DNA from: Fragilariopsis cylindrus CCMP1102
Taxonomy: Eukaryota > Bacillariophyta > Bacillariophyceae > Bacillariales > Bacillariaceae
Assembly (NCBI GenBank): GCA_900095095.1
Contig: FMBT01000348.1
Span: 1-64,000 of the forward strand
Reading direction: 5' to 3'
DNA length: 64,000 nucleotides
Within the stretch, counting starts at the first letter, position 1, and each line of letters begins with the position of its first letter. This document shows, in pieces, positions 8,336 through 52,517 of this stretch. Made by a program: the position numbers and the translations under genes. Below the pieces are notes generated by a model. That model saw only the letters and a program-made list of their open reading frames with translations, was not told where the DNA came from and made no database searches.

Positions 8336-10738
8336 TTAATGGTGCTCGTTCAGACAGTCTAGATAATATCCATACTTAGTGTCGCTTCCCCAATTGTCGC
8401 TAGATGCTTCTACTAACGTTCCTTCTCCCGCTTCGTTGAACGTTGTGATCAGTTGCCAATCTTCGCCAGCTTCGACCATCTTTTTGGTGTTTTCACAGAA
8501 CTTATCTCGTGATACACGTGGAAGCTTAGGCTCATCCATATCAGCTCTCCAAAATCCTGGAGATATACCGGTGGAAACATCCTTTATGTGGATATATTCT
8601 GTGGAGGGACCATACTGATGCCATGAATCAGGTTGGAATTCACAATCTGTATGACCCGGAAAGACCTTGAGGACAACATACCAATCATTCTTAGCTGCCT
8701 GCATCCAACGTTCATTAACACTACAACCCGCTTCATTATATACAAAAATAACCGGCTTGTCATCTACATTTGCCCAAGCTGGATGCCAAACAAACCACTT
8801 CTTCAAATAGTCAAGGTCGCTACGTATTGTATCAATAGAAGGGTTACGAAACATTTCATCCTCATAGTATACTGTCCATTTGATGCTTGAATTTAATTCG
8901 ATCGTTTTATCCATAAGAAGTGTCATCCGTGACAATTCTTTACTTGTTCCGGGTCCCCACCATGATGCAATAGATATATCAGTGTACGCATATTCCATGG
9001 CGTCTATGTGCTCTTCTACTATACTTCCGTCACCGGAACTATACTTTCCAAGATCAGGAACAAATTTGACTGGCTTTGAATTTACGCTCCATGTTTCTGG
9101 ATACCAAGGATAATAGAACATTCCCCGTAACGGAAATTGAAGTGAACGGGAAGATGGACCAGTATATGCACCACGAGGAACTGTAAGCATAGATAAGCAA
9201 ACGAAACGAGAGGGAAAGAAAAAAAAAGAGGCAAGAAAAGACAAAAAATTGTTGTTAGCGGTCGATTGTATAATGTTATTTATTTCTCTAATGTTTTGTT
9301 TTAGATCGTAAATTTGGTTGGTGTTGTTGGTGCGAATAACATAAAACTTACCACCCTGCATCCAGATAGCTGTTTGGCCCATCAATACGGACAATCGACC
9401 ACCATCATCAACAACCAAGTGAGCTCCGGGATTTTTAGAAGTATGGGTCGTCCAAATCAATTTATTATTACCATCACGTAGAACGAGGTTACCATCTGGT
9501 TGCATCGTAGCCGAGTCACAACCTTCAACATTCGCTTTCCAAACTGTCTTTCGATCCGAATCTTGTAAATGAAGATCACCAAAGTTGTCCAGACCAATAC
9601 TATACTTGTTAGATGGTGATGATATAAATTCTCCTCTTGAGAGTGTATCACGAGATTTTAATACCACCTCTTCAGCAAAACTTCGAAAGTTTGGATTCAA
9701 TCCAGAATTAAATGTTGGAAGATCATAACGACCATCATTATCATTATCATTATCATTTCTAGTCGTTGCTGTTGTCGTCCAAATTTTGGTGTACGAATTA
9801 CTATTATTATCATTATTATTATTATTAGTAAGAACGATCGATGCTATTCCTGAATCGTCAATAGTTAGATGTGCACCATCATTTCCACTTGATTCTGTAT
9901 TCCATATTGCCTTACTATCATCATTTCTAACAACAAGGTTCCCATCTCCTTGCATGTAGCTTGCCTGTCCTCCGAGAACTCCATTAGACCACTTGATACT
10001 ATTGGAATTGTTATCCATAACGACGAGTTCACCTGTAGTATCAACGAGTCCAATCTTATAATGATTGTTAGGTGATAAGATAAACTGTCCCCTAGAAAGT
10101 TTACCATCCTTGGCCAATGCAGTTACCTCACGAATAATGTTACTATCATTATCATTCTCATTATCATTATCATTGTCATTGTCATTGTCATTATCATTAT
10201 TATTACCATTACTATCCATTGATGCCTGTCCAGTAATAATCATCGAATCAATGTTCGGACCACCATCACCGACAACAACGATTTTGATCTGATGTTTACC
10301 TTTCTTTAATGAAACAGTTAACGATTCTGATCTCCAATCATTCCATGAATCAGTTGGATCGATCGAATAATCACCACGTTTGATTTGATCAACATATAGA
10401 TAACAACTACGTTGATTCGGTGAACTGTATCGGATAAGAATATCATATTCTGCCTTGTTCAATGTAGTTTCAATTTCCCATTGTACAAAGCTACCCTTAC
10501 CACCAAAATCTGCATACCCATTTCCGGTATACCCTTTATGCTTTGGATTGTTACTGGACCTTTCACTACCACCAGAATATATATCGGCATCGTCACCTTC
10601 AAATTTGTGCTTCCATATTTCAAGATCAATACTATGCGCTTGTCGGAATGAATATGATGACAGCAACGCCAGTAATTGTACGAAGCAAATCAGACTTGTA
10701 CGTAGTAGTAAAGGATATTGACGTCGGCCGATGGTCAT
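8336..10738 (-). CDS. Secreted lectin-repeat protein with a C-terminal GH99-like glycosidase domain
   Basis: Two exons, 10738-9352 and 9180-8336, joined across a 171-base GTAAGT...CTTACAG intron, give 743 residues. Order of parts: signal peptide (~1-35, ending FRQAHS); a CBM6/35-like carbohydrate-binding domain (~36-165, ending in the PNIDSMIITG strand); an Asn/Asp linker; two bulb-type lectin domains, each with the mannose-site pattern seen in DGNLVLRDGNNKLIW; then a GH99/GH71-like barrel from about residue 475 with FYYPWYPETW, ISIASWWGPGTSKE and ITTFNEAGEGTLVEA. GH99 enzymes include the Golgi endo-alpha-mannosidase and bacterial mannanases; here secretion or the Golgi lumen fits the signal peptide. 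The substrate is inferred to be mannose-containing glycan because both lectins and GH99 bind mannose. The intron is in frame and stop-free, so retention would add 57 residues. Confidence 0.85.
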   Translation of the reverse strand: MTIGRRQYPLLLRTSLICFVQLLALLSSYSFRQAHSIDLEIWKHKFEGDDADIYSGGSERSSNNPKHKGYTGNGYADFGGKGSFVQWEIETTLNKAEYDILIRYSSPNQRSCYLYVDQIKRGDYSIDPTDSWNDWRSESLTVSLKKGKHQIKIVVVGDGGPNIDSMIITGQASMDSNGNNNDNDNDNDNDNDNENDNDSNIIREVTALAKDGKLSRGQFILSPNNHYKIGLVDTTGELVVMDNNSNSIKWSNGVLGGQASYMQGDGNLVVRNDDSKAIWNTESSGNDGAHLTIDDSGIASIVLTNNNNNDNNSNSYTKIWTTTATTRNDNDNDNDGRYDLPTFNSGLNPNFRSFAEEVVLKSRDTLSRGEFISSPSNKYSIGLDNFGDLHLQDSDRKTVWKANVEGCDSATMQPDGNLVLRDGNNKLIWTTHTSKNPGAHLVVDDGGRLSVLMGQTAIWMQGGKFYVIRTNNTNQIYDLKQNIREINNIIQSTANNNFLSFLASFFFFPSRFVCLSMLTVPRGAYTGPSSRSLQFPLRGMFYYPWYPETWSVNSKPVKFVPDLGKYSSGDGSIVEEHIDAMEYAYTDISIASWWGPGTSKELSRMTLLMDKTIELNSSIKWTVYYEDEMFRNPSIDTIRSDLDYLKKWFVWHPAWANVDDKPVIFVYNEAGCSVNERWMQAAKNDWYVVLKVFPGHTDCEFQPDSWHQYGPSTEYIHIKDVSTGISPGFWRADMDEPKLPRVSRDKFCENTKKMVEAGEDWQLITTFNEAGEGTLVEASSDNWGSDTKYGYYLDCLNEHH

Positions 10739-34753: not shown

Positions 34754-37700
34754 TTAAGAGCGATCAGTAATGGACACAACTCCAACTTCTGAAGAAGGAA
34801 CAATACGAACAAAGTACTTGACCGAAGAACTCGATAAGATTCCCATCCATGTATCATACGAACTTAAATCGCGCTCCATATTATGCGATTCCTCCTCGTT
34901 TTCGTTGTCACCCTCTTGTTTATTGTCAACCAGTCTGATATCTTCCTGTTCATCTGAGCTATCTCCTCGCTTTTCTTCGTTGGCTGCCACCTCCTTTTGA
35001 GCAACAGCATCAAGAAGAAACTCTCCTCTCTCATTTTCTTCACCTTCTCCAGAGTTTTCGCCAAGGTTTTGTTGTTCTTCTTCTTCAGAATCTTCCTCTG
35101 ATTCTTCGTCATCACCACCTGTTTCTTGTTCTACTCCGTCTATTTTATCAAATTTGGTATCGGCGCCTGTATCAGCGCCTGTATCGTCTATATTAGTATT
35201 CCTTACTCTGTCATTTCCTATACGATCTACTGCATCCACCTCAACTTCTTCAAGCAATCTTCTTCTTCTTCTGTGACCCTCGGGTACAGTTTTGACGTTA
35301 TCACCGATCCACCAAGGGCCAACGCCAGATGCCTTAGCAATGACTCGACTCCACATATCGTGTAGTCCAAGGACAAATTCCAAAGCAGATCGATCTGTCG
35401 TGACTTCCCATTGCACTATTTCTCCTAGAACATCACATCGAAAGAGACGACCGTCGTCCGATTGAAGTGTATGCACTATCCAACGAGAATCCAATAGCTC
35501 CATAAAACCATCTCCAAATAGATTGTCTGAAACTGCAATACGAACCATTCTGTAGGCAGCATTTTGAACGAGTGTATTCGTCGATTCAAGACCACGTTGT
35601 CGATAATTAGGATCATCCATCATCATCATCATTTCTTCTTCCTCGTCACCATCATCGGCAAAGTAATCTTTGGGTGTACCCTTACCAATAAGCATGGCTG
35701 TAGCTCCTTCCATTTCTTCACTGTATGGTTGTGCGGATGCCTCACGTAGTAGTTTCGGAATATTGAAGAGCATAATATCCGGATCAATATATATAGCACG
35801 TTTAGTATTACCACCAAAGAATAGTCCAGGGGATAGCTTAGGCAATAATCTGAGGATTTCGTTCTTGTCTATCACGTCGTTGCTTTCATCTACCCTCAAC
35901 GGAGCTACTTTCAAAGGGATTATCACCCAAGATCCGTCCCGGAACAGGTCGTCGCGTCGTCCACTGGTACTACTACTACTACTACTACTACCCATGAAGG
36001 ATGACCCACGATTAGGATTTTGAAGTGCCTGAAACAACATACTATTTTGAGCCACAAATGCCAAGTTGCAAGTTCCCTTCAAAAAAGATTTCGACGATAT
36101 CTGAAGCTTCGGATTAGCCGATGGAAGCGACTGGAGTGATTCATCAAGATCGACAGTATAAAGTACCGTTGCACATTCAGACGTCAGGGCTTGTGTCCAA
36201 CCAATAACTTCATCGTAGTAGGACTTTGTACATTGTGCCTCATGAGAACATTCGGAGGCACAGGGGAAAACTGGAGTTCCTCTTAGACATTCTTTGTCGT
36301 AGGGTGAGCATCCAACAATGCCTTGATTGGCAAAATAAATGCTCTTTTTTTCATTTTCGTTGTGAACTTTAACGTTATCGCTTTCGTCCTTCGTATGACC
36401 ACGACCACCATATGGAAAAGCTCGATCGTAATGCCAAGCTAGCATTTTAATGATACCCTCACGCAGATTCACTTGAGGTTTGAAACCTAACAAAGTCCCT
36501 GCTCGTTTAGTAGAACCAACAGAACCTACATCGATTCGTTCTGTCCTCCGTTCAGTCGACGATGACGCGTTTTTCTTACTTATTGGGGGAAAGAATTCTT
36601 GCATAATGTTGAGAACATCATCCAAGGAATGACCTTGTCCACTCGCCACGTTGAATATAATTGGATGTGGATTTCGTCGTCCCTGGGCATTATTTTCTCC
36701 CTCGGTTGAAGAAGAAGGTTGTAATTCTGATGTTCGGAATTGCATTGCCGCCATCATAGCATCAACAGCGTCATCGATATAAACAAAATCATGAATCGAT
36801 TCCTTCCATATGTCATGGTTGTTATACTGACTATTTCGCATCCAATCCTCCTTTTGATTAGTATCTTCGTCGATGCCATCTAGATCACCGGTAACGGCTC
36901 GTTCCGCCATTTCAAACAGAGGACTTCCCGGGACACCCCACGGTCCATATACAGTAAAGAATCGTAGACCTACACTACTAATATTTTTTGTATCGTAGTA
37001 TAGCTTTGCCAGCATCTCATCCATAACCTTAGATGCCCCTCGCAGTGAAGATGGAGTGCTTAGCGTTTGTGTTTCTTCCAAAAGATGAGACGACGTCGAT
37101 GAGGATCCGGTATTCTCCCTCTCCTCCTTGCTATGCGGATCGTTATTGTTATTGTTATTGCTATTGTGATGGGGATACACTTCAAACGAGCTCGCGTACA
37201 CGAAGTGTGGAGGAATATAATCACTATCACCATTTTCACTATATTTTCTTTCTCGTTCATGCTTGGCGAGTTGTTCCATCAATGCCTCCATCATACCAGC
37301 CTTAGGAACTTCCTTTTCTCTAGGGACTACTTGTAAGGCCGAATGAGGGAATGGATCAGCTAAATGAACGACGTGGGTGATGTCCAGATTTTCTCGAAAA
37401 ATATGATCAAGGACAGGTACCTCGCCTAAATCGAAATATTCAGGGATCATGGGAGAAAAGTCTACACGATAAAATCGGCCTTTATCACCCAAGGTTTGCA
37501 TCACGTTGAAGGATCTTTGACGTTGAAATTCGAATAGGGCGAGTTCTTCTTGACTTTCAGGATGAATCATCCTATCCACGCAAATAATACGTCTCGGTGA
37601 ATAGGTACGGTGTAAAGCCAAGGCTAATTCACTTCCCAAAAATCCAGCGGCACCCGTTATAAGCACGACGGATTCCTCTGTTAAGAAAGCATGGCCAAAG

Positions 37701-37867
37701 TTTTCGTTTTCGTGATAACCGTGTTCATTTCGATATCGATATCCGTCTCCACCTTTTTTATCTGCTTCTGCTGCCTGGCAATTATTAAGAATGCACGTCG
37801 AAGTCAATAAACAAAGCCAGAATGATAAACAAATCAGGAACGACGGTCGCAATCTTTTTCTATCCAT
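34754..37867 (-). CDS. Fused epimerase-like (SDR) and glycosyltransferase-like protein
   Basis: One exon, 1,037 residues from ATG 37867 (a TTG three codons upstream is less likely). Signal anchor at about residues 6-32 (LICLSFWLCLLTSTCIL), so Golgi/secretory. Residues ~65-490 form an extended SDR domain like UDP-glucuronate 4-epimerases: GAAGFLGSELALAL (NAD-binding glycines present), VVHLADP, FVYASSFEVYP, LRFFTVYGPWG, HDFVYIDDAVDAMMAA and the LGFKPQVNLREGI tail. The catalytic Tyr of YxxxK is not seen: the aligned site reads SLRGASK, that is Arg where Tyr is expected. Residues ~530-860 form a second, Cys-containing domain (PCASECSHEAQC) with a DxD-like YIDPDIM, suggesting a nucleotide-sugar transferase. 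A ~90-residue acidic stretch follows, then an ordered end. A shorter, more degenerate paralog is at 48813-51491. Probably glycan synthesis; exact reaction unknown. Confidence 0.8.
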   Translation of the reverse strand: MDRKRLRPSFLICLSFWLCLLTSTCILNNCQAAEADKKGGDGYRYRNEHGYHENENFGHAFLTEESVVLITGAAGFLGSELALALHRTYSPRRIICVDRMIHPESQEELALFEFQRQRSFNVMQTLGDKGRFYRVDFSPMIPEYFDLGEVPVLDHIFRENLDITHVVHLADPFPHSALQVVPREKEVPKAGMMEALMEQLAKHERERKYSENGDSDYIPPHFVYASSFEVYPHHNSNNNNNNDPHSKEERENTGSSSTSSHLLEETQTLSTPSSLRGASKVMDEMLAKLYYDTKNISSVGLRFFTVYGPWGVPGSPLFEMAERAVTGDLDGIDEDTNQKEDWMRNSQYNNHDIWKESIHDFVYIDDAVDAMMAAMQFRTSELQPSSSTEGENNAQGRRNPHPIIFNVASGQGHSLDDVLNIMQEFFPPISKKNASSSTERRTERIDVGSVGSTKRAGTLLGFKPQVNLREGIIKMLAWHYDRAFPYGGRGHTKDESDNVKVHNENEKKSIYFANQGIVGCSPYDKECLRGTPVFPCASECSHEAQCTKSYYDEVIGWTQALTSECATVLYTVDLDESLQSLPSANPKLQISSKSFLKGTCNLAFVAQNSMLFQALQNPNRGSSFMGSSSSSSSTSGRRDDLFRDGSWVIIPLKVAPLRVDESNDVIDKNEILRLLPKLSPGLFFGGNTKRAIYIDPDIMLFNIPKLLREASAQPYSEEMEGATAMLIGKGTPKDYFADDGDEEEEMMMMMDDPNYRQRGLESTNTLVQNAAYRMVRIAVSDNLFGDGFMELLDSRWIVHTLQSDDGRLFRCDVLGEIVQWEVTTDRSALEFVLGLHDMWSRVIAKASGVGPWWIGDNVKTVPEGHRRRRRLLEEVEVDAVDRIGNDRVRNTNIDDTGADTGADTKFDKIDGVEQETGGDDEESEEDSEEEEQQNLGENSGEGEENERGEFLLDAVAQKEVAANEEKRGDSSDEQEDIRLVDNKQEGDNENEEESHNMERDLSSYDTWMGILSSSSVKYFVRIVPSSEVGVVSITDRS

Positions 37868-38519
37868 AATTGTCAAAGCAACGCTCGAACGCTAACGTTA
37901 GCAGTCGAAAGGTCTTAATTTCATTTAATTTGAGTGCAATAGCAGTACAAGTCTAACGTTGAATAGCAAAGCAAAAGTCTGAAGTTCACTAGTTTTAAGT
38001 TTGCTATCTGAAGTACAAAATAAGTTACAACAACATTTAATAATAGACAATAAAGGAAAATTAAAAATATAATTATATTCGTGTGAAACGCGTAACGAAT
38101 GAATAATCAATCAAATCGGATGAGTTTATTCACGATTCATTCCAATTAAGGGGTTGATTGATTCGGGGGTAGTGCTATTGTTAAAAGCGGGTGTTTTATT
38201 CAGCACGGAAAAGTTTGTCTGCTACTGTACTACTAGTACTACTAGCATAGTCGTCAGCTAGCTTTACAAAGATATATATATCTTATGCAGGTCAAATCGG
38301 ACAAAAGCAGTATATCTCCATGGACTTTTAATGTACAATCTGTCACAATTGCCTCCAGGCAATCAAAAAAATACAGTTAGTTGAACGCTATCTATAAAGC
38401 AACCAAGGAAGAATTGTGTTATGTCAATGATATAATATTATAATACAGTAGTAGTTGTTCACTGCTTGCTTGCTGCTATTTTTAAGATGACCACTAACAT
38501 ACTTTCTTTCTTAAATCAG

Positions 38520-38660
38520 ATCAATATCAATGTAGGTACAGTTGAATGAATTCCCATTGTCATGTTGATGTGAATGATTTCTTTCTACTTTTAATTCTAG
38601 TGCAGGTATCACTCGCAATTGAAAATGTCAAGGAAAATCTTACCTAGGATTGAACCACAT
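38520..38660 (-). repeat. Diverged dispersed repeat, copy A
   Basis: In reverse complement it aligns with 58520-58690: an identical 32-base core (38544-38575 against 58636-58667), a shared TTGATAT/GATCTG stretch after it and a shared CCAATCCTA-like block before it. The GGTTCAATCC on the minus strand near 38645-38654 resembles a pol III B box, which would fit a SINE, but no A box is convincing. Confidence 0.6.
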
Positions 38661-39205
38661 CATCACTGGTTTAACACATACTAGAACTAAAGCAGACCAC
38701 CAGGGCCAGAGACTGCCTGGGTGATATGATAATAGTTACCAAGTATTTTATGTAATCTCCAACTGTTGTGATGACAATGGCATGCAAGCTTGCCCACCAG
38801 CACAGGTGTATACATATTGCATATTATAAATATTGCTATTGAATAATTAATTATTGTTCTACACCCCTAGATAAATGCACATATTATATGTGACTTGAAA
38901 TCTTAACAGCTTTCCAGCTATGGAATATCTACGCCACACTTCAAATCATAGTGGAGTGGCTCAGGTTTTGTGGAATTCCGTCTGGCTCGTGGATGCTCGC
39001 GCGAAGTGAAGAACTCTCTCATTGTTGTATCTTCTTTTGTCACGTGCTGTATTACGGTACTACTATTTACTGATAGTAGACAAGTGATACCGTTCAAGGT
39101 AAAAGTGACTAAAGCATCAAGCGAAAGATATAAAAACAGGTCCAACACAAAATATCATTTTTACAGAACATTTCTCACAAAAAACCAAAGCAAAGCAAAA
39201 CAAAA

Positions 39206-39206
<1 letters not shown>

Positions 39207-39246
<40 letters not shown>
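39207..39246. repeat. Poly(A) tract, 40 bases
   Basis: Uninterrupted A run preceded by CAAAA units. It lies in the presumed 5' UTR/promoter of the PEP-utilising gene, which has introns, so it is not a retrocopy tail of that gene. Confidence 0.9.
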
Positions 39247-39247
<1 letters not shown>

Positions 39248-39330
39248 AAGATTAAATCAGATAAATAAAATAGAAAGAATCGAGTCGAATCGAATCAAGA
39301 ATATATCATATATTCAAATATAGTGTCATT

Positions 39331-42300
39331 ATGACTACTCGTCTTCCACTCATGAAAAGAGGGTCCGCTACCGAGAGCTCAAAACGAAGCTCAATGCGTG
39401 GTAGTATTTTAAATACCACTGCTAGACGTGACTTGATTGCTGCTCAACTCGCACTTGATAGAGAGATTTTTGATCCATCCCTTGGTTGTCCACTTACATC
39501 CTTTGAAGGTGCAACATTAGCTTTGATGGGTGGAAAAGCCTTAAATTGTTGGAAGCTAGCGCGTCATGGGTTCCCCATTCCAACAGCTTTTGTAATTCCA
39601 ACGTATGTATATTCGTTACATATTGACGAAGCAAATGTAGCAAGTTTAATCAGTGATGTCTATACAGCCAATCTTAATGATGGAAATGCTCGTGGCGCTG
39701 CAAAGGCCAAGTTAGCAACAATTCGTGAGAAAATCATGAAAACTGAACTCAATCCTGAAGTTGTGAATAATCTCAAATTATTCCTGGAGAGTTTAGCTAC
39801 TGGATCCTTCGTAGCTATTCGTTCGTCTTCTTCTGCTGAAGATCTAGATTCGCAATCATTCGCGGGTCAATACGATACATGTAAGTTTATCTCTATCAAA
39901 ATTTATAACATAATGTTCCTTTGTTCTTCGCTTTCCGATTCTATTTTGAATCAATCATCACCTCGTCTCGACGTCGCACATCCATTTATGTATTGAATAA
40001 GACCCACCTCGATGACTGACTAAAGTTAAGATATTTATATCTTATTTTTTGCTCAATTCTGATATTTTTTATTCGTTATATCATCACGCACACAGTTTTG
40101 TACAAGATGACCTGGATGAGATCGTAGATTCCATCAAGGGGTGTTGGGTATCAATGTTCAAGGACCATATTTTGGACTATGCCACTCATTTCGAAGGTTA
40201 CGTCCCTGGGAAAATGTCGACACCCACCATGGGAGTATTAATCATGAAAATGGTAGAAGCTCAATCTTCTGGAGTATGTTTCAGCAGAAACATTTGGGGA
40301 GACAATAATGAAGCATGATCGAAGCGGTATTAGGTCAAGGAGAGGGGTTAGTGTGTATGTATATTAATTTTCTAACGATCTCATTTGGTTTATCGTTCTT
40401 GTCTTCAATTCAATTACCATCTATTACTTTTCCAATCACTGTATTGTTTCGTACTTCTCTGTTATCTCTATTATTAAATTACCATCTCAGCCGGAGCTAT
40501 AACACCAGATAGATTCGTTGTAGATAAATATTCAACAATGTTTGTTATTCCGATATTTCAATTCAGACGAAAAAGTTTGTTAGAGCTAGCAACGAGGATG
40601 GTGTTGAAATGATCACCCTTGACGACCCTCACGAAGGACCAGTTCTCACGGATCAAATGTTGACGAAACTTACCAACTTGGCAAGATCTATTGAAGAATA
40701 TTACAATGCGGCACAAGATATTGAATGGGCCGTAGACAACAATGGAAGATTATACGTCTTACAGTCTCGTCCAATCACGACTGCAAATAGCTCTTCGTCG
40801 CTCTCCTTCGTTCCTCCAGGAGATGGTTTTTGGACGTTCGATCCAACGCATCACCCTAGACCACTTACAAAGTGGATGGAAAATTATTCCACGGACCTTA
40901 TGTCACATAACTCTCGTCGAGTTGGTTCTCTACTAAATCAATTAAACAGCGAACAATCCATGGCTACTCTTTCTCACAGCCAGAACACTTCCCTCCTTCA
41001 GATATTGAAAAATTAGAACGAGCGGCAAAGGCATATTGGGAGAAAAAACTATACGAAGAAGATTACCAAGAATTCGTCGATTTCTTTCGTCCAGACTGTG
41101 AGAGATTACGTCAAGAACTTCGTATCATCGATCCGTCGGTTTTATCCCATCCTTCACTGGTGAGGTACGTTGTTAAATGCTACGATTGTGCTGTTGAATT
41201 TTGGAAACTTCATCACGTATATACTATGCCTTGCATGGTTGTCGTTGGTGACTTTATGAATCGAATGGCAAAGTTGACAGGGAACGGTACAATGGAGACA
41301 TTACAACTTCTTGAGGGAGCTTCTCCTGAATCCAGAGGAATGCTCAATAAGAATGATCCTGAATTAGGAAAAATGTACAATTTGCTCAAACAAAATGAAA
41401 AGGCTTTGGAATTGCTCAAGTGTGACGAGAATATGGCAAAGTTTGCATTGGATTGTCTATTACATTTGCCTGGTGAGCTCGGTGAGCTTCTGCGGAAGGT
41501 ATCATTCGAATATGGTTGGAGATTGACCGGGGGGTATGATTTATGCGTCCCAGCTATGATAGAAACTCCGTACTTTTTCATTAAAACTCTTCAACAAGGT
41601 GTTGAAGAAGACGATGATTTAATGGAAAGAATAAAGAGCGTGTCGTGTCTCTTACATCTGAATGGCGCGAGTCTGTGCCAGAAGAAAAGCGAGAAGAATT
41701 CGATGAAATCCTGGAAGTTGGTCGTCGTTTCTTCCGAATGAGAGATGAACGAGGTCTATGTACCGATCTGACCGGAGTTGCATTATGCCGTAGGGGAATT
41801 CTAGAGGCAGGCCGCCGACTAACACATAAGGGAATCATCAACGCGCCAGATCACTTGACATGTGCTACAAAGAACGAAGCTATATCTTTATTGACAGGGG
41901 ATTTCGAGGCTTAACAGTTGATATTCAGGCCCTGTCGATGTTCCAACTGCGACAAATTACAGTCTCGTTTCCTGTATATTAAGAACGCTGATCCATCAAA
42001 AGTGCCCAATCCCTCGGTGTTCCTCCCCGCCGCCTCCAGACGTCCCTTTGCCCCCAAACATTGCCCGAACGATGGCAAATCTATACACAGGCCTCATCAA
42101 AGGGTTGTTTGACGAAACAAGTGGTAGTGAAGAGGATGTCTCAGAAAATCCAGATTGTAGCGTTGGGATCTCAGCTTCGACGGGCAAGGTTACGGGGAAG
42201 GTGACTGTTGTTCTACAGGATTCAGATCTACAGTTGGTTCAAAAGGGTGACATCGTAGTAACCTACTCAGCATCTGCCTCGTTTAATTTTGTTCTAGCGT

Positions 42301-42485
42301 TGTGTTCAGGGATTGTTACGAACTACGGAGGGATGCTCTCTCATGCGGCAATTGTCGCCCGCGAATTTGGAATTCCGGCAATTGTTGGAACTCAAGATTC
42401 AACTTACAAGTTTAGAACTGGAGATATTGTGACCATTGATTCTAACACACACTCTGTCACTCGTGTCCAGCAGCAAGAAGATTAG
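39331..42485 (+). CDS. PEP-utilising phosphotransferase-like protein (PEP synthase/rifampicin phosphotransferase type), frame-disrupted
   Basis: Architecture of PEP synthase-like enzymes lacking the PEP/pyruvate barrel: an N-terminal ATP-binding domain (ALMGGKALNCWKLARHGFPIP, RSSSSAEDLDSQSFAGQYDT, MKMVEAQSSGVCFSRN, DIEWAVDNNGRLYVLQSRPIT), a ~450-residue middle domain, and a C-terminal swivelling phosphohistidine domain with GGMLSHAAIVAREFGIPAIVG carrying the catalytic His. Bacterial rifampicin phosphotransferases share this order; the substrate here is unknown. Exons 39331-39880, 40096-40354 and 40491-42485 with canonical introns. The coding frame changes about seven or eight times between 40096 and 42026 (for example at 40316, 40532, ~40975, ~41640, ~41912 and twice at 42013-42026), most explicable as one-base losses in short homopolymers, while each segment keeps family residues. 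The first change disappears if the acceptor at 40106 is used. Either assembly error or a decaying gene; neighbours suggest error contributes. Confidence 0.75.
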
Positions 42486-43662
42486 GGTAATGAAATGAAC
42501 AGAACAGAACAAAACAAGACAAGACAGGACAAAACAAAACAAAACAAACAGGACAAAACATTAGCAAATTGCATGAAATAAATCATTTCTCAGACGAATT
42601 TCGATACACAATACATATATATATATATATATATATATGAAGCGAATCGAATCGAATCAAGTACGACAAGGAATGGCGCGTCAAGAATTAACGGATAAAG
42701 GTGGAGTTCAGTTTATTGTATCTAGCCATTACATTTATTTTTATTTCCTATATGCAATTGAACAAAATTCTATGATAGCTCTAAACACTAGAAGGGTTAG
42801 AACTGACTTGATTCCCCTGTTAGTATCAGATCAGCTCTATAGTGGATATATATTTTAAAAGAGTTTGGAATAATGATGAATGAATAATTGGTTCTCCTAT
42901 TTTAATTTGACAGTATACTTCTCCATCCCATCCATGACAATTGATCTACAATAATGTTTTAAAATGGAACGTTTCTATTGAAGTCAATCTGTTGACTGGT
43001 AGTGGTAGGTAGTATTTGTAATACAGTACTGTAATAATATGATTGTGTCTAGTACACTGTACAAATATTCAGTCTTGTAAAATATAATCATCCAGTCCCG
43101 GCTATCATTATTACAGTTTACAGTAGGATGACACTCTACTACAGGAACAGTAGAAAGTCAATATAAACTCAACTATAATTTGATTTTAACCGGAAATTGT
43201 CATTTTTATGACGTTTCGGCTTATTGTATTTAATTTCTATTTGAATAATTTTTAAGGTTTCTATTTTTAGAATAAACTTCTCTTTATACTTTAAGCTATT
43301 TCTTTCTGGCTGTGCGCTGGAATTAACCAGATTTGAGTCTGCGCCTCATACATCTTGCACGTTCAATATACTTGCAGGACTACGTAAAATGATAGAATAA
43401 ACGACATCCCGATACGCATGTCGTGTCATGCAGTACAGTAATTAAAATAAATGCATTCCAAGAAAAAAATAACAACCCGAAACGCAAATTATTTCGCAGA
43501 TTGAAGTTAGTTTCATTTGATTTTGGGCACTCAAAAACTCGACCAAAGAACATGGACGAAGGGGATTTTAGATTCGTATACAAGCAGTAGTGGTTGCACG
43601 TACGGGGGCTGGCGAGACTTTTCGGTTGGGTTGGTAGATAATTCTTTGGATATTCTCTGGAT
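42486..43662. other. Intergenic, 1.2 kb, with AC-A-rich and AT repeats
   Basis: Contains ACAAA/ACAGG-type purine-rich repeats (42496-42560) and (AT)n at about 42615-42638. One copy of a ~50-base direct repeat lies at 43279-43326. No gene seen. Confidence 0.5.
43279..43326 (+). repeat. Direct repeat flanking PAN2, upstream copy
   Basis: About 48 bases around TTTAAGCTATTTCTTTCTGG, repeated in the same orientation at 48443-48494. The two copies differ only by one-base length changes in T and C runs. Confidence 0.85.
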
Positions 43663-46600
43663 ATGAATTACAGCAACGAAAATCCGAACTATGGCTATCC
43701 TTCGGGTCAACCGACCACTGTTGTCGACGAATCGTCATACGTTTATGAGGCACAAGGAGAAAACGGAGATATGTCAGAACAGCAATCTTACTACTACGAT
43801 TATTCTCAACAACAGCAACAATATACATATCAACAGCAGCAGCAGCAGCAGCAGGAATATGACGAATTCGGACAGCCATTGGTAGGAACAGGTGCATGGG
43901 AAGAACCAGCAAAGGATGGAGAGTATTTTTATGTTTCCGATTTCACTCCAGAAGTGTACGGTCACGCTGTCAGTGCATTGGCCTTCGATCCTATGTATAA
44001 TTGCATGTATGTCGCATCTACTACACAAAGTATGTCACCCAGTACCAGATATACCAAGTCAAACCATTACCACCGAGCTAGTTTGCTTCTTGCATATTCG
44101 AGGACTCCTTCGAAAGAATTATTTTTGTACAGTTCCGTGGCTGGTCATCCGGAAGCATCTGTCTCCACCTTACAATCGGTGTACGAATCTATATATGGGA
44201 TTTCCAAAGTGGATGCAATCCAACGTGGAGTTGGGAAATGGTTGGTCGCGGGAAGTTCAGGTGATGGACGAAGAGGGAATAATTTTTACCCGCCAAATCA
44301 CGCGTACCAACCCCCATATGGTGGAGGAGAAGTAGCAGAAAACATGAATGCGTATAATTATAATACTCGTCCGGGACAACATCAACAAAGGCAAAGGGGT
44401 CACATGGGAATCACGGAACTTTTGCCGTTAGATAGTGGCTTTGTTGCTTCAGTTTCACCTTCGGCAGTGCGGATACATTCGCATGGAGGCTTTCAGGTGC
44501 ATGACCACCCTGACATGTCTGGGATGATCAGTGGGACGATTCATCCGAACTGTTCATCGGGGGTATCGAATAGTGGAAATGCTGCTGCAACCCACATAAC
44601 GGTTGGAGGGCTGTCTATGAAGAAGTCAAGCGGTACCGATTCGACTATTCATCCGTCTATTCATTGTCTCGATCTTTGGCAGGGACTACGTACTGTCTAC
44701 TCGCGTTGTTTTAAGGACGCAAGCAATAATGATAACCAAGTGGGGGTAACTTGTATGACGACCAGTCACGAAAGAGGATCTATTGTTGCGGGATGCACTG
44801 ATGGGAATATTCGATTATTAGATGGATCCTTACGAGAATTGGCAACGATACGATCGCATTTGGGTGGAGTCTCAAGTATCGATGTATCTCCAGATGGGAA
44901 TCTTGTAGCGACCACGGGTTACAGTTCGAAAGCGAAACCAACAAGTAATGACGGTTGCAGCGCGCTGTATGCGTTTCCAGACCAGATAGTAAAGATTTAT
45001 GATCTAAGGTATTTAGGACGAGGTGGTATATCTCACCCTTTTTCAGGTGCGAAGGGAGCACCGAGACACGTATGCTTCGTTCCAGATGTAGAAGATTGTC
45101 CGTCAAATCGATTCCTTGTTGCTAGTGGCAAGCGGGGAGGTGGGATGCAAATCATCACTCCATTTGAGACGCAAAATGAGGACACCATAAGCTTCTTCTT
45201 GCCACCTTTGCAAGAAGGAGAATCGATTACAGCTATGAGTAAACCGGAAGAGAGCGGTGATGAATTGGCTTTGGGGACTTCTATGGGACGAGTTATGAGA
45301 TATGGTCTGGCTGGCTACGATAAAAAAATTGACAACAGCAAAACTAAGCAATTGACTACACAATCTGGCGAAACAAAACCCATTACCTCAAGGAGGCGAG
45401 AAAAAGAGGACCTGAGTATGCCTCCGTTTTATCCTGTTGAACCAGCTGTATCGTTGGACCCTACACTATTACAAGGAAATCCCGAGTTGAGGAATGGAAC
45501 TACCGACGAGATGCGATGTTTGTTTAGTACATACATATTACAAACATACCCTACGGTTACATCAATAGGAGATTCTTTCGAAGATGCCATATCGACATTT
45601 GGAGCCCAGATCGGTGGAGACCCAATATTGTTGGAAAAAATAGGAAGATTAATCAAAGTTTACTTAAGGAGGCAACTACTGGTGAAAAGGAATATATGCT
45701 AACTGTTCCGACTTCCAAAATTCATGTAGATCTGCTTATAAACCACAATACTGTGTCAAAAAATTACAAAGGAAAAAAGACTAAGGAAATACCAAATCCA
45801 AACAAGATGCTGTATAACGTCAAACTTTCTTCTTTGTGCTACGAAGATGGATGGAATGGGAAACAGCAACAGCAACATCGCGGACAACGAAGCAATGGTA
45901 CAAGTACGTCGAATAATGGTATTCCTGCCCGTTATCAACTACAAATAAGACCAGCTTTCACAGCATCGAGAGCCTTCGATCCTTCCGAATACAACGACAC
46001 GGGGCTTTTCCCTGGTTGGGATTACGGGTCGACTATGCCAAACGCATGGGTGTCACCGGTCCTACTCTTATTTTACTTTATCCCAGAAATTCGGAATGCA
46101 GTTCTTTCCGCTCAATTTAACGATAAGTCCCTCGGCACTAAAGCTTACGATAAGGCCCTAACCCCCGAACTTGGATTTGTTTTCCATCAAATGGAAAGCC
46201 TGTCACGATTCGGTCTACTATATCCCACGATGGAATTACGAAATTCCAAAGAAAAGCGACATCGGCCTAAGATTGGAGCGTGGATACCATCAAACTTTTT
46301 AACATTCTTATCTACTATGGGAGAAGCTGAGAAAATGGCTGTTTTGGATGACTCTCCTGCGGCAGTTGACCTTCCGAGAAGACCTGAGTCGTTTTATCGC
46401 TTCTTGGCCTATCAGCTAGATAGAGAGCTGGGCTCTTCATCTGTATTATTACCTTCGTCAAAGAATAAATCATCAGAACCAAAATTGATGGACTCTCTTC
46501 ATGGTCTTGACTTTTTGAGTAGTAATCAATTCATTGAATCGAAGGCAAGCCCACCGACACAATCTTCGACTCGCGCGTTAACTTTAGATCTGAATTATGA

Positions 46601-48385
46601 TATTTTCATCCGGGCGCAAAAAGGAGCCCATTCGATTTGGAGAATTGCTTCAACATTCCTTGTGCCGAGAAACTAGATTAAGAGCTTGGAACAATAAATC
46701 TCGTGCTTATGAAACCATTGTTCAGAGAAGAATTGCAACATCTCTTCCTCAAATTCTGACAATATCGTGTGCTTGTGCTGGTCGAAAAGAACAAGACGGC
46801 TTATGGGCCTGGAGGACAGATACTAACGGGCGCGATCCCTGGTTAGCTGAAACAATAGAAGTTGAGTTACTTGAAGATGGTAACGTTGCAGTAACAGAAT
46901 GGCACAAAACCGAAGATGGTAACGGAGAGACTTCATCGACTTTCCGGGGGAAATCTTCCCTTCCACCTGAAGTATCCAGACTAGTGTCAAACGCCTCTTC
47001 AAAACAGAAGTATCGATATCGCCTTGAATCAGTCCTTTCATTTGTGACAGACTCTTCAGATGAAGGCGAATCTGACGAAACATTAGGTCACCACGTTCTC
47101 CACTCACGTGTACCTCTCGATTACAAGCGAATGGTTATAAAGAGCCAAGCTGAAGAGGCGAGAAAGATATCAGGCATTAATACGAATCTAAAGTCTGAAG
47201 AAGAACGCGAGTTACACAATCTTCTTCTATCGTCCGGTATTACAACAGAGGATTATGTGAAGCGGGCAGAAGATGCCGAGCATCAGCTATCATCCATCGA
47301 ACAAGAGCAAGAGACACACCATGATTCGTCGTCGTCCACCAACTGTGATTGGATACTTTATAATAGCTACAAGGTTTCCAAGACAGTCGTTGAAGATGCG
47401 AGAGCCTTTCATGTACCGTTCAAGGAGCCGGTTCTTGTGGTCTTTCAAGCCGTTGATGAAAATGGGGTTCCACTACGAGATACGAAAGATTCACACAGTG
47501 GAGTGGATAAAATCTCGAAGTCCCTTTCTGTATCTGTAATGAACCCTTCTTCTCTATCTACAAATACTGGTGACATTCTTACTAATGAGTGTTTGCAACA
47601 ATTTCGGCGAGGACGTCCAATAGCATTTGACGCCGAATTTGTCAGCGTCCAAGAAGAAGATTCGGAATTGACTGAGTCAGGACAGAAACAAGTCTTACGT
47701 GACATGCGTCATGCTCTTGGTCGGATATCTATCTTCGATTGTCCTACTGAAAACGTTGTTGTGGATGACCATGTATTGCCTCGAGAACAGGTTGTGGACT
47801 TTTTGACTCGATTTTCGGGAATTATAGACGAAGATTTGGATCCAGCCCGTTCTAGTCATCGAATTATTTCGACTCGGAATGCTTACTTGCAGTTGCGATA
47901 CTTATTGGATCAGGGTTGTATCTTTGTAGGGCATGGACTGAAACAGGACTTCAGTACAGTGAATTTGATCGTTCCGCCCAATCAGGTTCGTTTTCTTTGT
48001 CTTTCGTTAGGTCGTGACCGAGAGTTGTCCTACTAATATTTGAATACCTATACTACTTTTCAATTTCACTCACCCCGTCTTGCCCGTCGTCGTCTTCGTC
48101 TGTCGGTCGAATGAATTATCACATATGCAGATAGTAGATACTGTGAAAATATTTCACCAATGCGGTAAGCGTTACGTCTCTCTTCGTTTTCTCTCCAACT
48201 TTGTTTTTGGACGAGACATGCAACAAGACACACACGACTCAGTTGAGGATGCACGAGCAGCATATGAATTATATTGTAAGGCCTTGATATGGAAAAAAGA
48301 AGGTATTTGGGACCAGCGTTTGCAAGAACTATATAATTTCGGGGAGAAGACGTCGTGGAAGCTTGGTACGAAGGATAGCAGTTGA
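43663..48385 (+). CDS. PAN2: PAN2, catalytic subunit of the PAN2-PAN3 poly(A) nuclease
   Basis: Shortens mRNA poly(A) tails at the start of decay in the cytoplasm, together with PAN3. About 1,525 residues against ~1,200 in animals. Starts at ATG 43663 with a Gln/Tyr-rich tail, then the WD40-like region (VYGHAVSALAFDPMYNCMYV; GSIVAGCTDGNIRLLDGSL; VSSIDVSPDGNLVATTGY), the pseudo-USP domain (EMRCLFSTYILQTYP; FGELLQHSLCRETRLRAW), and the DEDD exonuclease: IAFDAEFVSVQ, FVGHGLKQDF and, after a 145-base intron (47986-48130), IVDTVKIFHQ...LRFLSNFVFG and THDSVEDAR. All four acidic residues and the His are present. The frame shifts twice, in an A run at 45655-45657 and in the A5 run at 46618-46622; each is mended in the family alignment by one A, so both are probably assembly length errors in this essential gene. 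Confidence 0.92.
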
Positions 48386-48812
48386 AAGGGAATATTATGA
48401 TTCATTATATTCTAAAATAAGCAAATCATTTGGAAAAAGGGATTCTCTTTTATACTTTAAGCTATTTTCTTTCTGGCTGTGCGCCTGGAATTAATGGTAT
48501 TGATTGGTACTAGATAGCGACTTACACATAGTGTGTTTCCAGTAACTTATGGATGACGAAAGAATTATAATGGCGTCTAGCAGTCCATTGCAATAATGTT
48601 TGCAACATTAAGCTGCATTAATTGTTCGTGTTACAAAGCATTTGGTATCATTTTTGTGATGATAAATGCTACGTGATTGATTTCGTACACCTTTGGATCT
48701 CTTTGAAATCCTCTTATTCTCAAACAAATTACTGCAAACAATCGCCCCCACTACGAAGTCTAAAAGTATACATTAGTTATTAATAATTACTTATGACCTT
48801 GATCTATGGAGT
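48386..48812. other. Intergenic with the downstream direct-repeat copy
   Basis: Spacer between convergent PAN2 and the paralog gene; holds the repeat at 48443-48494, otherwise nothing recognised. Confidence 0.5.
48443..48494 (+). repeat. Direct repeat flanking PAN2, downstream copy
   Basis: Matches 43279-43326 in the same orientation; 58 bases after the PAN2 stop. Confidence 0.85.
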
Positions 48813-51491
48813 CTATTCATTTATTTGTGACGAATAAGCTGTTCTTGCCTTAAGGGGATTGTACAACTTCACGAAGTGTTGACTCGTACTGGGTGATATA
48901 TCCTCCTCTTCATATGTATCGTGCTCTGAAATAGCTTCTCCAGATTCTCCTATCATCACCATTTCGCCCCATCTTGTATCTTCGTCTGATAAGGGAAGTA
49001 ACCGTCTTTGTCGTCGCCATCGGTGTAGGACGTACGATAGACTTATTTCTTCCAAGTTACGATTGTTATTTTTGTTGCTCCAAAACAGATGCTCTTCGTA
49101 CCATTCACAACGAAGTCTTTTGCTCCGAACAGAATCAACAGAATAAATCATCAAGGGTGTGTCAACGAGTTGAAACCCTGATCCTGCTTCATGTGCCTTC
49201 TGCCAGGTTATTGATTTAGCGTAGACTTCAAATTGTCGTGTGTTATTTTGGAAGGAATCGTATCCTTGTGTACTCTTGCCTTTTTGTTCCAGGATGAACT
49301 TTGCCGCGTTGAACATGTAATCGTCCTTTGTTGGATCCGAGTTGAAGCTAGTAACATTGTATTTATGTGCAAATAAATCAATGTGCCTGCTTGGAATCAT
49401 ATCGTTCCCTTCACTTTCTCCTGGTAAATAACTTTTTGGTTTGGCTTTAGCATCAAGCTGTCGGCCCATTAAATACCATATGATTTGTAGTGAAGGAAGG
49501 ACGTCGAAATGTTGTGGTTCTAAATAGAAAGCCTTCAGAACGCCATCATTCACAATACTTTCAGGAATCATTTTTGGCATCATATAATCAGCCTCAGATA
49601 GAGATCTCTCGTCCTCATCGACCCATATCAATTTCCAACCATTGTTTGATACTTGACCGTTCCATTCGTTAATTGATTTATCAGAAGACTGGTCGTCTCT
49701 CTTTACTGCCTCATTGATAGTATTGTTTACTATAGAACTGTTCGATGACACAAATGCCAACTGACAGAAGGATTCCCTCGGCCAAGCAGCCTTATTATCT
49801 GCTTCCTTCATAAGAGGGAGCCCCTCCAGCGTTGGAGAGAAATTAGTCGTGTACAGCAGATATTTACAGCCATTAGTAATATCCTTTGTGATAGTTAGGA
49901 CGGAATTCCAAACTGAAAGCTGATGACATTGGACAAAACTTGCACATGCCGAAATACACGGAAACAAATGATGCTGTCGGCGTTCTAATAGCGAAACACT
50001 AGGATCCATCTTTTTCTCGAGTATGTGGTGACGTGTATTCATAAGGGCGAGTCTCGTTATCCTTGAATTTTCTACTGACGAATCATGGACAGGAGAAGGA
50101 TCTTCATATGGATTAGTTTGCTTATAATTCCAAGAAAGTATCGGAAGAAGCGTCTCATCGACTGTTTCCCCCTCATTCTTGTTAGAACTCAGAACTATTG
50201 GGAGCAACTTTTTTGATAGTTGAAGTAATGATGTCGTTTGAGATTTCGCTGCAGTCAAAATTGGGATCGAATTTTGTTTCTGTGTATGCTCTAAGCTACC
50301 TGAAACCAAAATAGATTGGATTGCTTTTGAGATAGATATGAGGGGTTGTGCCATAGACGTCGACGTCGAATCGTACCCTTGAACTTTATCGGTGACCATA
50401 CTAGTTCGGTGAAGAAACTCATCAGAATGTAGCCATGATGCACCTCCTGTGAACGGGCCATAAATATCAGGAAGATTGAGCTGTCTCGCACGAAGCTGGT
50501 ATTGAAATCGATACGTGTTTAGTAGTATTGGGCTTAGTTTCGAAAACACTCCGGCTGATTTAGTATTCGTATATGGTACATTCGATGTTACATGGAGAAA
50601 ACTCGCAGGTCGTTCCGATCGTATTTTACAATTGTATTGCACATTTGTTGTAACTCGTCTATCATTGCATGAGTTGTAAAGGCACTCAACTTGTCATCCG
50701 TTGATAGGAGAAATGAATCGGATTGGAAGAAAAATATGTACGTTGGAGAGAAATCTTCAAATAGGTCTTCCATAGTTCGTTTTCCAATAGGAGTTTCGGA
50801 AATATGCACCTTTAAGTTAGGTATGCGTTGCATCAAAAATTCATAACGGAAAGATTCTTCCGCATTCGGTATGTGATCCGATAATCCAAGAATATGTGTC
50901 ACACCACACTCCACGGCTAATACGAGCGCTAATTCGAAGGCTAGTGGATCAGACAGGATGCTAGATATAAGAATTTGGTCGCTGGCGTTGTAACTTTTCC
51001 TATCGTTGCGTTCACAATAATCGTCTCCGAGAATATAGTCATTCGTTGGAAACGAAGGATATATTGAATCAATACTATAGGTAGTCATTGCACTTGCATC
51101 GGTGGTTGTATTACTAAGAGACAAAAAGGATATGTTGAAGGTATCGTCCGTGTCTTTCTTTTCGGATATTCTGATCGGTGTTGGTGCTGCTTCTCGATCT
51201 TAACTTTGGAGTACTTGGAGTACTCGGAGCATGGTCCATCGAAATATTAACTCTGTGAACATTTTCCTCGTTGTACTGGGAGACCAATACGGAATTCCGT
51301 ATCGTATGTATCATGCAGAGCATAGCGAACATTCCGATCCTACTTTTGAGTCTACCACTGTCACGCTTTACGATCTTCTCAGGTAGTTCTGGAAAAGCAT
51401 TGTTTTTGTCTGACACTCTGTAGGTTTTTTTTTGACCCGAATTACCGGTGCTACGATCGTCATAACTATTTGTAAACCTTGATTCATTCAT
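48813..51491 (-). CDS. Degenerate paralog of the epimerase/glycosyltransferase fusion
   Basis: Distant paralog of the gene at 34754-37867. ATG 51491; a membrane-anchor-like helix at about residues 49-68 (RIGMFAMLCMIHTIRNSVL). A likely 91-base intron (51204-51114, weak GTTAAG donor, strong CTCTTAG acceptor) joins the first exon. Shared features with the paralog: FELALVLAVECGVTHIL aligns with GSELALALHR, DIYGPFTGG with VYGPWGVPG, CISACASFVQCHQLSVWN with the PCASECSHEAQC domain, and LRCEWYEEHLFWSN...LSYVLHRW with FRCDVLGEIVQWE...LGLHDMW. The NAD-binding glycine motif is lost (QILISSILSDPLAFELA), no YxxxK is seen, and the DxD position reads YLEPQHF. So both domains look catalytically dead or changed. 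The frame shifts once in an A4 run at 50624-50627; one more A would keep the family alignment (MCNTIVK-IRSERPASFLHVTS). Confidence 0.6.
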
Positions 51492-52517
51492 TTCTCATCC
51501 TGTCTTAGATCAGGAACACCTTTTTTCAATCACCTTCCACTTTTTCCAACTCTTATGTGCGGGCGCTTAGTTCATCTGGTAGATTGTAACAGCATGATCC
51601 GATATCTCGTTAATGTGTACTTTGTGCGGTAAAGTATTGTGTAAGGCGTAAGAAAATTTAAAAATGAAATAATGATGTACAAAGTTGTAAGTTTCGCGTT
51701 AAAAGTAACGTTAACGTTATCGGGCATGTGTTTAAAAATTCGTTAGAATTAAATATAAGCGAACTCGCCACCTAAATCATGGGAATCTAATTATGCTTAA
51801 TTTTTTATAGATTATTTATTTGTGAGACGTGGTAATAAAGAAATGACGATGGACCACCTAGCAAGCACCCAGCTGGTACTGTAGACATACTAGGTTCATT
51901 GTTCAATGTATCAATCCATTGTTTATGCTATCACCCTCTGCCAGTTGAAAACAAATACTTTGTTTAATTAATGGTCAAAAGGTTAAATCCATCCAGGATA
52001 CAATAAAGAGAGTAAATTTTATCTCTTGTTGTGTTTCTTTGATCACTGTTGGATTGGTGGTTGGTAGTCTATTATTATAGAAAACTGCAGGGAGCAGATT
52101 CAGCATAAGCGCAGCTTTGTTACAATTTTACCAGGACTTGATCTCACTATCTTCATTGTGAACTGGGGGTCTTGTGGTACTGGTACAGTAGCTCAATGGT
52201 CGCAAGAATGGAGCTGCTACAGTATACAGTATGGCTGAGGAGAGATTTTAATTCTGTTTCATCAGCATCATGATTCGATTCACGGACAATTTCAGTCGTG
52301 TGAATTTGATCAGTCCTGCCTGCCTAATTTACAGCGAAAAGTTTGTTCGTTCAATTCTTGATACCAAGGTTAATTTTTTCAATTATTACTGAAGACCGAA
52401 GAAATGAGGATGGATTATTTCAAGTATACTACTATTGCAAATCGCTAATTAAGTTTAAAAACCAACCAACCAATAGTTATAATATACCTATATTTACCAA
52501 CCTTCTAGCTATACAAA
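51492..52517. other. Divergent intergenic region, 1.0 kb
   Basis: AT-rich promoter region between a minus- and a plus-strand gene. A tRNA A-box-like TAGCTCAATGGTCGC occurs near 52190, but no B box or cloverleaf follows. Nothing else seen. Confidence 0.45.

Follow-up and report, generated by a model that had tools for sequence, protein, structure and literature searches.

A 64,000-nucleotide window of the genome of the diatom Fragilariopsis cylindrus CCMP1102 (the whole stretch analysed: assembly GCA_900095095.1, contig FMBT01000348.1, positions 1 to 64,000) contains two linked genes, here called gene 1 and gene 2, which an earlier note had described as paralogous fusions of an epimerase-like short-chain dehydrogenase/reductase (SDR) half with a transferase-like half. 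The coordinates proposed for them, 34754-37867 and 48813-51491, hold. Both are encoded by the minus strand, and plus-strand translations are riddled with stop codons. P1 denotes the protein of gene 1, with residues counted from the ATG at 37867, and P2 that of gene 2. Gene 1 is a two-domain fusion in one frame: a single unbroken open reading frame (ORF) of 1,037 codons runs from this ATG to a TAA at 34754, and the frame is already open upstream of 37876 (1040 codons if counted from the TTG at 37876). Its features are as follows.

34754..37867, minus strand: gene 1 (P1), single frame; SDR domain, unnamed second half and acidic tail
37763..37867, minus strand: signal-peptide-like N terminus with a basic start and the hydrophobic run LICLSFWLCLLTSTCIL, judged from sequence
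36407..37672, minus strand: SDR domain, residues 69-490, of UDP-glucuronate 4-epimerase type (Pfam, PDB sequences, AlphaFold, Foldseek)
37181..37189, minus strand: S230 (retained), F231 and E232, equivalent to Thr126, Ser127 and Ser128 of the B. cereus epimerase (phmmer and homologue alignments)
37040..37042, minus strand: R279 (CGA) at the site of the catalytic Tyr; residue 279 pairs with Tyr149 of the B. cereus enzyme, and Tyr stands here in 79/79 homologues
37028..37030, minus strand: K283, the retained Lys of YxxxK, present in 79/79 homologues
35291..36331, minus strand: second half, residues 516-862, with six Cys common to gene 2; possible GT-A-like domain
35777..35785, minus strand: DPD (698-700), a possible metal-binding DxD, from sequence
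34757..35290, minus strand: C-terminal tail, mainly acidic and of low complexity

The most hydrophobic 17-residue window of the N terminus begins at residue 14. P1 probably enters the secretory pathway, which would give it a lumenal location; for the Golgi site suggested in the earlier note, P1 offers just this signal-peptide-like start.

The family of the SDR half is clear. Its Pfam matches are Epimerase (PF01370; E=5e-16), covering residues 71-381, and GDP_Man_Dehyd, covering 267-478; the rest of P1 has nothing significant in Pfam. The best match among PDB sequences was 5u4q (E=1.3e-15), followed by MoeE5 and the B. cereus UDP-glucuronate 4-epimerase, and a profile built from 79 bacterial homologues, with P1 excluded, gave P1 98 bits. 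A first AlphaFold model of P1, made from 45 bacterial rows (of the 79) plus two from gene 2, has a well-folded SDR core with low-confidence loops; all 50 PDB chains that Foldseek listed for this part are, by title, SDR-type epimerases, dehydratases or their relatives. P1 thus combines the Rossmann fold of the extended SDRs with their TGxxGxxG motif, which reads TGAAGFLG.

The active site of this domain has been altered at several precise positions. Homologues were collected with a 61-residue P1 query that found at least 574 relatives; the best 80 were kept, and 79 with a full-length SDR remained after removal of L006, whose SDR is truncated. The set holds closest relatives only, all prokaryotic, and the query spans the YxxxK motif, itself bearing the Arg. 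P1 retains 60 of the 108 columns conserved in 90% of these homologues. As the earlier note had observed, the glycines of the nicotinamide adenine dinucleotide (NAD)-binding motif are present and the catalytic motif reads SLRGASK; from the Ser/Thr-Tyr-Lys triad, S230 (Ser in 76 homologues, Thr in 3) and K283 are left, with R279 standing for Tyr. The CGA codon is three changes away from both TAT and TAC, so R279 is not a one-base error. According to PMC7984243, Tyr149 is the catalytic base of the B. cereus epimerase, and the substrate carboxylate is bound by Thr126, Ser127 and Ser128 together with the main chain of Thr178. What we add is that two of the three carboxylate-holding side chains of that enzyme are, by alignment, Phe and Glu in P1 (F231 and E232, both sites being Ser in 79/79 homologues), S230 being the one kept; V315 further replaces an Arg present in all 79. 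The SDR half of P1 is very probably a pseudo-epimerase that has lost its epimerase activity.

Gene 2 is a true paralogue of gene 1 in the second half and the junction, and a more eroded one. Its features are listed here.

51114..51494, minus strand: open stretch 1, with a moderately hydrophobic segment, possibly a signal anchor
50588..51199, minus strand: open stretch 2, in another frame; perhaps what is left of the SDR N part, without its glycines and of marginal likeness to P1
48813..50693, minus strand: open stretch 3, holding a possible remnant of the SDR C part (YGPF at 50525-50451), the junction and the second half
48969..50018, minus strand: second half, paralogous to P1 516-862
49512..49520, minus strand: EPQ at the place of the P1 DPD (sequence alignment)

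None of 500 shuffles reached the score of P1 501-700 against P2 201-400 (z 20), and for P1 701-870 against P2 the score was reached by 0/500 local and 1/500 global shuffles; six Cys are common to the two second halves, in agreement with the matching cysteine blocks that had been reported. By blastp the two proteins share 28% identity over 147 residues (E=9e-11 in a database of only three sequences) and 27% over 172 residues (E=2.7e-8 among the 298 window ORFs). The 147-residue match begins in the last SDR helix and extends into the second half (P1 473-614). The score of the junction itself, comprising the SDR end and the linker, was reached by 2/2000 shuffles. A correspondence along the full length of the two proteins, as claimed, is therefore borne out in the second half and at the junction but not secure in the SDR half, where likeness is marginal (38/500 local and 30/500 global shuffles for the N part, 8/500 and 5/500 for the C part). 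The SDR profile found no significant match in gene 2, which counts against the joint interpretation offered below; a single colinear local match around YGPF lies within the shuffle range. Since both genes share the junction, the fusion of SDR and second half probably predates the duplication. A search for a third copy among the 298 window ORFs gave no more than weak matches of short length, the strongest at E 0.021.

The identity of the second half is far less certain. It had been called transferase-like, a claim that the searches do not bear out: P1 516-862 has no significant Pfam, NCBIfam or PDB-sequence match. Pattern searches for it returned 35 matches in bacterial genome contigs and 60 in viral contigs, with none confirmed in either, and none were found in phages; the whole of P1 gave no pattern match in viral contigs. 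The closest candidate is TOD1_MUCI70/DUF616 (PF04765), which Pfam describes as glycosyltransferase-like, TOD1 itself being reported as an alkaline ceramidase (PMC4309442). By eye, P1 and P2 show the blocks W.I..., K..P.LFF...YID and a C-terminal ...E...SLSYVL in the same order as this family, whereas two features of the family, a Gly following YT and the RDQ in RDQxS, are missing. Profiles of 12, 28 and 108 TOD1 domains were aligned with the P1 and P2 pair using hhalign, giving p values of 0.028, 0.031 and 0.075, weaker with the largest profile. The score against the 28-domain profile was reached by 1/150 column shuffles, and that against GT8 (17.6) by 18/150. Taken singly, P1 gave p 0.029 with 28 domains and 0.11 with 108, and P2 0.0064 and 0.014; the GT8 values were 0.06 for P1, 0.63 for P2 and 0.24 for the pair. 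The best local matches, the DPD block of P1 and the C-terminal block of P2, fall at corresponding places of TOD1 and in the right order, and the two proteins agree with 13/47 (P1) and 19/47 (P2) of the near-invariant TOD1 columns in alignment A5.

Together with the empty family searches, several controls weigh against a transferase assignment. P1 aligns to GT8 almost as well as to TOD1. Its full-length TOD1 profile score was reached by 101, and that of P2 by 40, of 245 unrelated ORFs (271 less 26 TOD1 members set aside). When the proteins were added singly, P1 agreed with 16/47 and P2 with 17/47 near-invariant columns; among 160 unrelated ORFs, 40 reach the first count and 25 the second. The HMMER local score of P1 falls among shuffles; for P2, two shuffles score higher with the small profile, and more do so with the large profile. 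The structural evidence is similarly double-edged, the prediction proposed in the earlier note having given a sound SDR fold in the first half and a model of the second that is poor unless TOD1 rows are supplied. With 42 viral-contig TOD1 rows (44 sequences in all), a second AlphaFold model of the P1 second half shows a partial GT-A-like core, with a mean predicted local distance difference test score (pLDDT) of 60.5 and blocks 556-585, 606-615, 646-655 and 686-705 at 81-91. Addition of these rows raised the 686-705 block from 26-28 to 81-87; the 556-585 block, at 34-48 without them, falls partly outside the TOD1 rows, in the helix before the first strand. Among the 50 chains that Foldseek listed for this model, out of 505 at E ≤ 10, 42 are glycosyltransferases, in which we take SpsA, glucosyl-3-phosphoglycerate synthase, BoGT6a and LH3 to be included, yet the best E is 0.12 and none listed is under 0.001. 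Because the fold appears only with TOD1 rows supplied, the model may be threading and is a hint rather than proof. As many unrelated ORFs do as well as P1 and P2 in both scores and column counts, and the similarity lies below the Pfam cut-off and profile significance, the second half was not filed as a TOD1_MUCI70 member. GT8 was likewise not accepted as its identity, on the shuffles and the pair value, despite the lower p for P1 alone.

A precedent for the combination exists elsewhere. The 108 TOD1-bearing ORFs collected from prokaryotes and viruses include a prokaryotic one, L116 (430-3015), in which an epimerase-type SDR follows the TOD1_MUCI70 domain, both confirmed by Pfam; L116 is the sole ORF of the set with an SDR, and 17/108 TOD1 loci, its own included, have an SDR ORF. 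L116 comes from the same phylum as the genome holding the Prochlorococcus locus L054. The joining of TOD1 and SDR in one protein makes a glycosyltransferase reading of P1 a little more plausible, and it makes the earlier statement that an SDR-transferase fusion is not described too strong, even though no description of a P1-type fusion was found in open-access literature text. TOD1_MUCI70-type domains are also frequent in viral contigs, where 172/237 pattern matches encode relatives (80 kept, L124-L203). One of these ORFs (L197) has two copies. Of nine long TOD1 ORFs scanned across the whole set, four (L109, L112, L121 and L187) join the domain to a glycosyltransferase family 2 domain.

We can now propose a joint interpretation of the two genes. 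The SDR of P1 would derive from a UDP-glucuronate 4-epimerase that retained its NAD site, Ser and Lys and lost the base and two of three carboxylate contacts, leaving, most likely, a non-catalytic domain that binds NAD and possibly a nucleotide-sugar. The second half would be a GT-A-type domain, divergent and rich in disulfides, whose metal ligand is DPD; this is the leading, albeit unproven, reading of the region. The whole of P1 might then act as a glycosyltransferase whose binding or regulatory domain is a pseudo-epimerase. Descended from the same fusion and left without glycine motif or DxD, as previously noted, gene 2 would be either a partner pseudo-enzyme or a copy in decay. We put the probability of this joint reading, in which the GT-A fold, the disulfides and the partnership are all conjectural, at roughly 0.45. 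An extended version, in which an early SDR-glycosyltransferase fusion was duplicated, both SDRs died and one copy also became a pseudo-transferase, with the dead SDRs sensing NAD or UDP-uronate and gating a new lumenal GT-A family as an obligate heterodimer, is improbable.

Two other explanations of P1 have to be weighed against this proposal. The second half could be a lineage-specific cysteine-rich domain rather than a transferase, and P1 a secreted protein with a dead SDR at its base that serves in binding or as a scaffold. The lack of any significant family, PDB or profile match, the negative TOD1 controls and the six conserved Cys all favour this reading, and we regard it as a substantial possibility, if short of an even chance. 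The ordered hhalign matches of both proteins and the partial nucleotide-sugar fold obtained for P1, the only protein modelled with TOD1 rows, speak for a transferase instead. Alternatively, the SDR of P1 may be active with changed chemistry, using Glu232 as UDP-glucuronate decarboxylases do and Arg279 or water in place of Tyr. The NAD motif, S230 and K283 are retained, and by PMC7984243 the decarboxylases UXS, UAXS and ArnA have Glu at the place of Ser128, while the B. cereus Y149F variant keeps slow, pH-dependent activity. The same paper, however, puts Y149F at ~1,200-fold lower activity with NAD+ still held, and invariance in the homologues of the Tyr, and of the Ser and Arg replaced by F231 and V315, makes an active enzyme unlikely.

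For gene 2, the question is whether its missing motifs say anything about a working pseudo-enzyme partner, since they would be uninformative if it were a pseudogene or misassembled. The gene consists of three stop-free stretches over two frames, with switches inside 51199-51114 and 50693-50588. At the second switch only five formal GT-AG pairs in the overlap restore the frame (32-89 nt), whereas many exist at the first, where an intron is consequently possible. Such disruption would suit a pseudogene. On the other side, the longest open stretch has 626 codons, and codon statistics (scanned over approximately 51434-50474) favour the open frames in nearly every window, weakly in places. The adjoining PAN2-like gene (43642-48385, plus strand) also falls into four open stretches that switch frame near A-runs, once inside its UCH_1 domain, a pattern suggestive of assembly indels, although that gene has formal GT-AG pairs as well. 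We consider assembly indels likely but not proven as the source of the switches, and a decayed or misassembled gene 2 to be a tenable, somewhat less than even, alternative to a functional partner.

An active enzyme that keeps a dead enzyme domain can couple its reaction to the level of a cofactor or substrate, and the loss in P1 is precise: the base and two substrate-carboxylate contacts are gone, the NAD motif is retained and the junction is common to two linked paralogues. If the second half is a transferase, the pair would represent a new sugar transferase family in this eukaryotic lineage, with a dead enzyme kept inside a working one, and a gene 2 partner would provide a natural test of pseudo-enzyme partnership.

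Other genes mark the window as eukaryotic: a V-ATPase A-type subunit, Sin3, the WD40/UCH_1/RNase_T gene, and eIF3 subunit 7, which has an apparent GT-AG intron; window gene names such as PAN2-like are presumptive, being taken partly from domain order. An ORF at 8336-10738 (minus strand) has partial Glyco_hydro_99 and CBM_6 matches, and one at 39331-39996 (plus strand) covers no more than the beginning of a pyruvate phosphate dikinase N domain.

Like L116, P1 joins an SDR and a second domain in one ORF, but L116 has the reverse order, with TOD1 first, and an SDR that keeps the Tyr (SPYAATK). The Golgi SDRs UXS1 and plant GAE act on UDP-uronates in the secretory pathway as single-domain, active enzymes. 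P1 most resembles the UDP-glucuronate 4-epimerases (B. cereus UGAepi 6zl6, K. pneumoniae 5u4q and MoeE5 6kv9) in fold, NAD motif, Ser, Lys and the RFFTVYGPWG block, the K. pneumoniae enzyme being the best match in both fold (Foldseek) and PDB sequence. It differs in carrying Arg for Tyr149, Phe for Ser127 and Glu for Ser128, in a GRPDM block that reads GVPGS, and in its long low-complexity insertions and fused second half.

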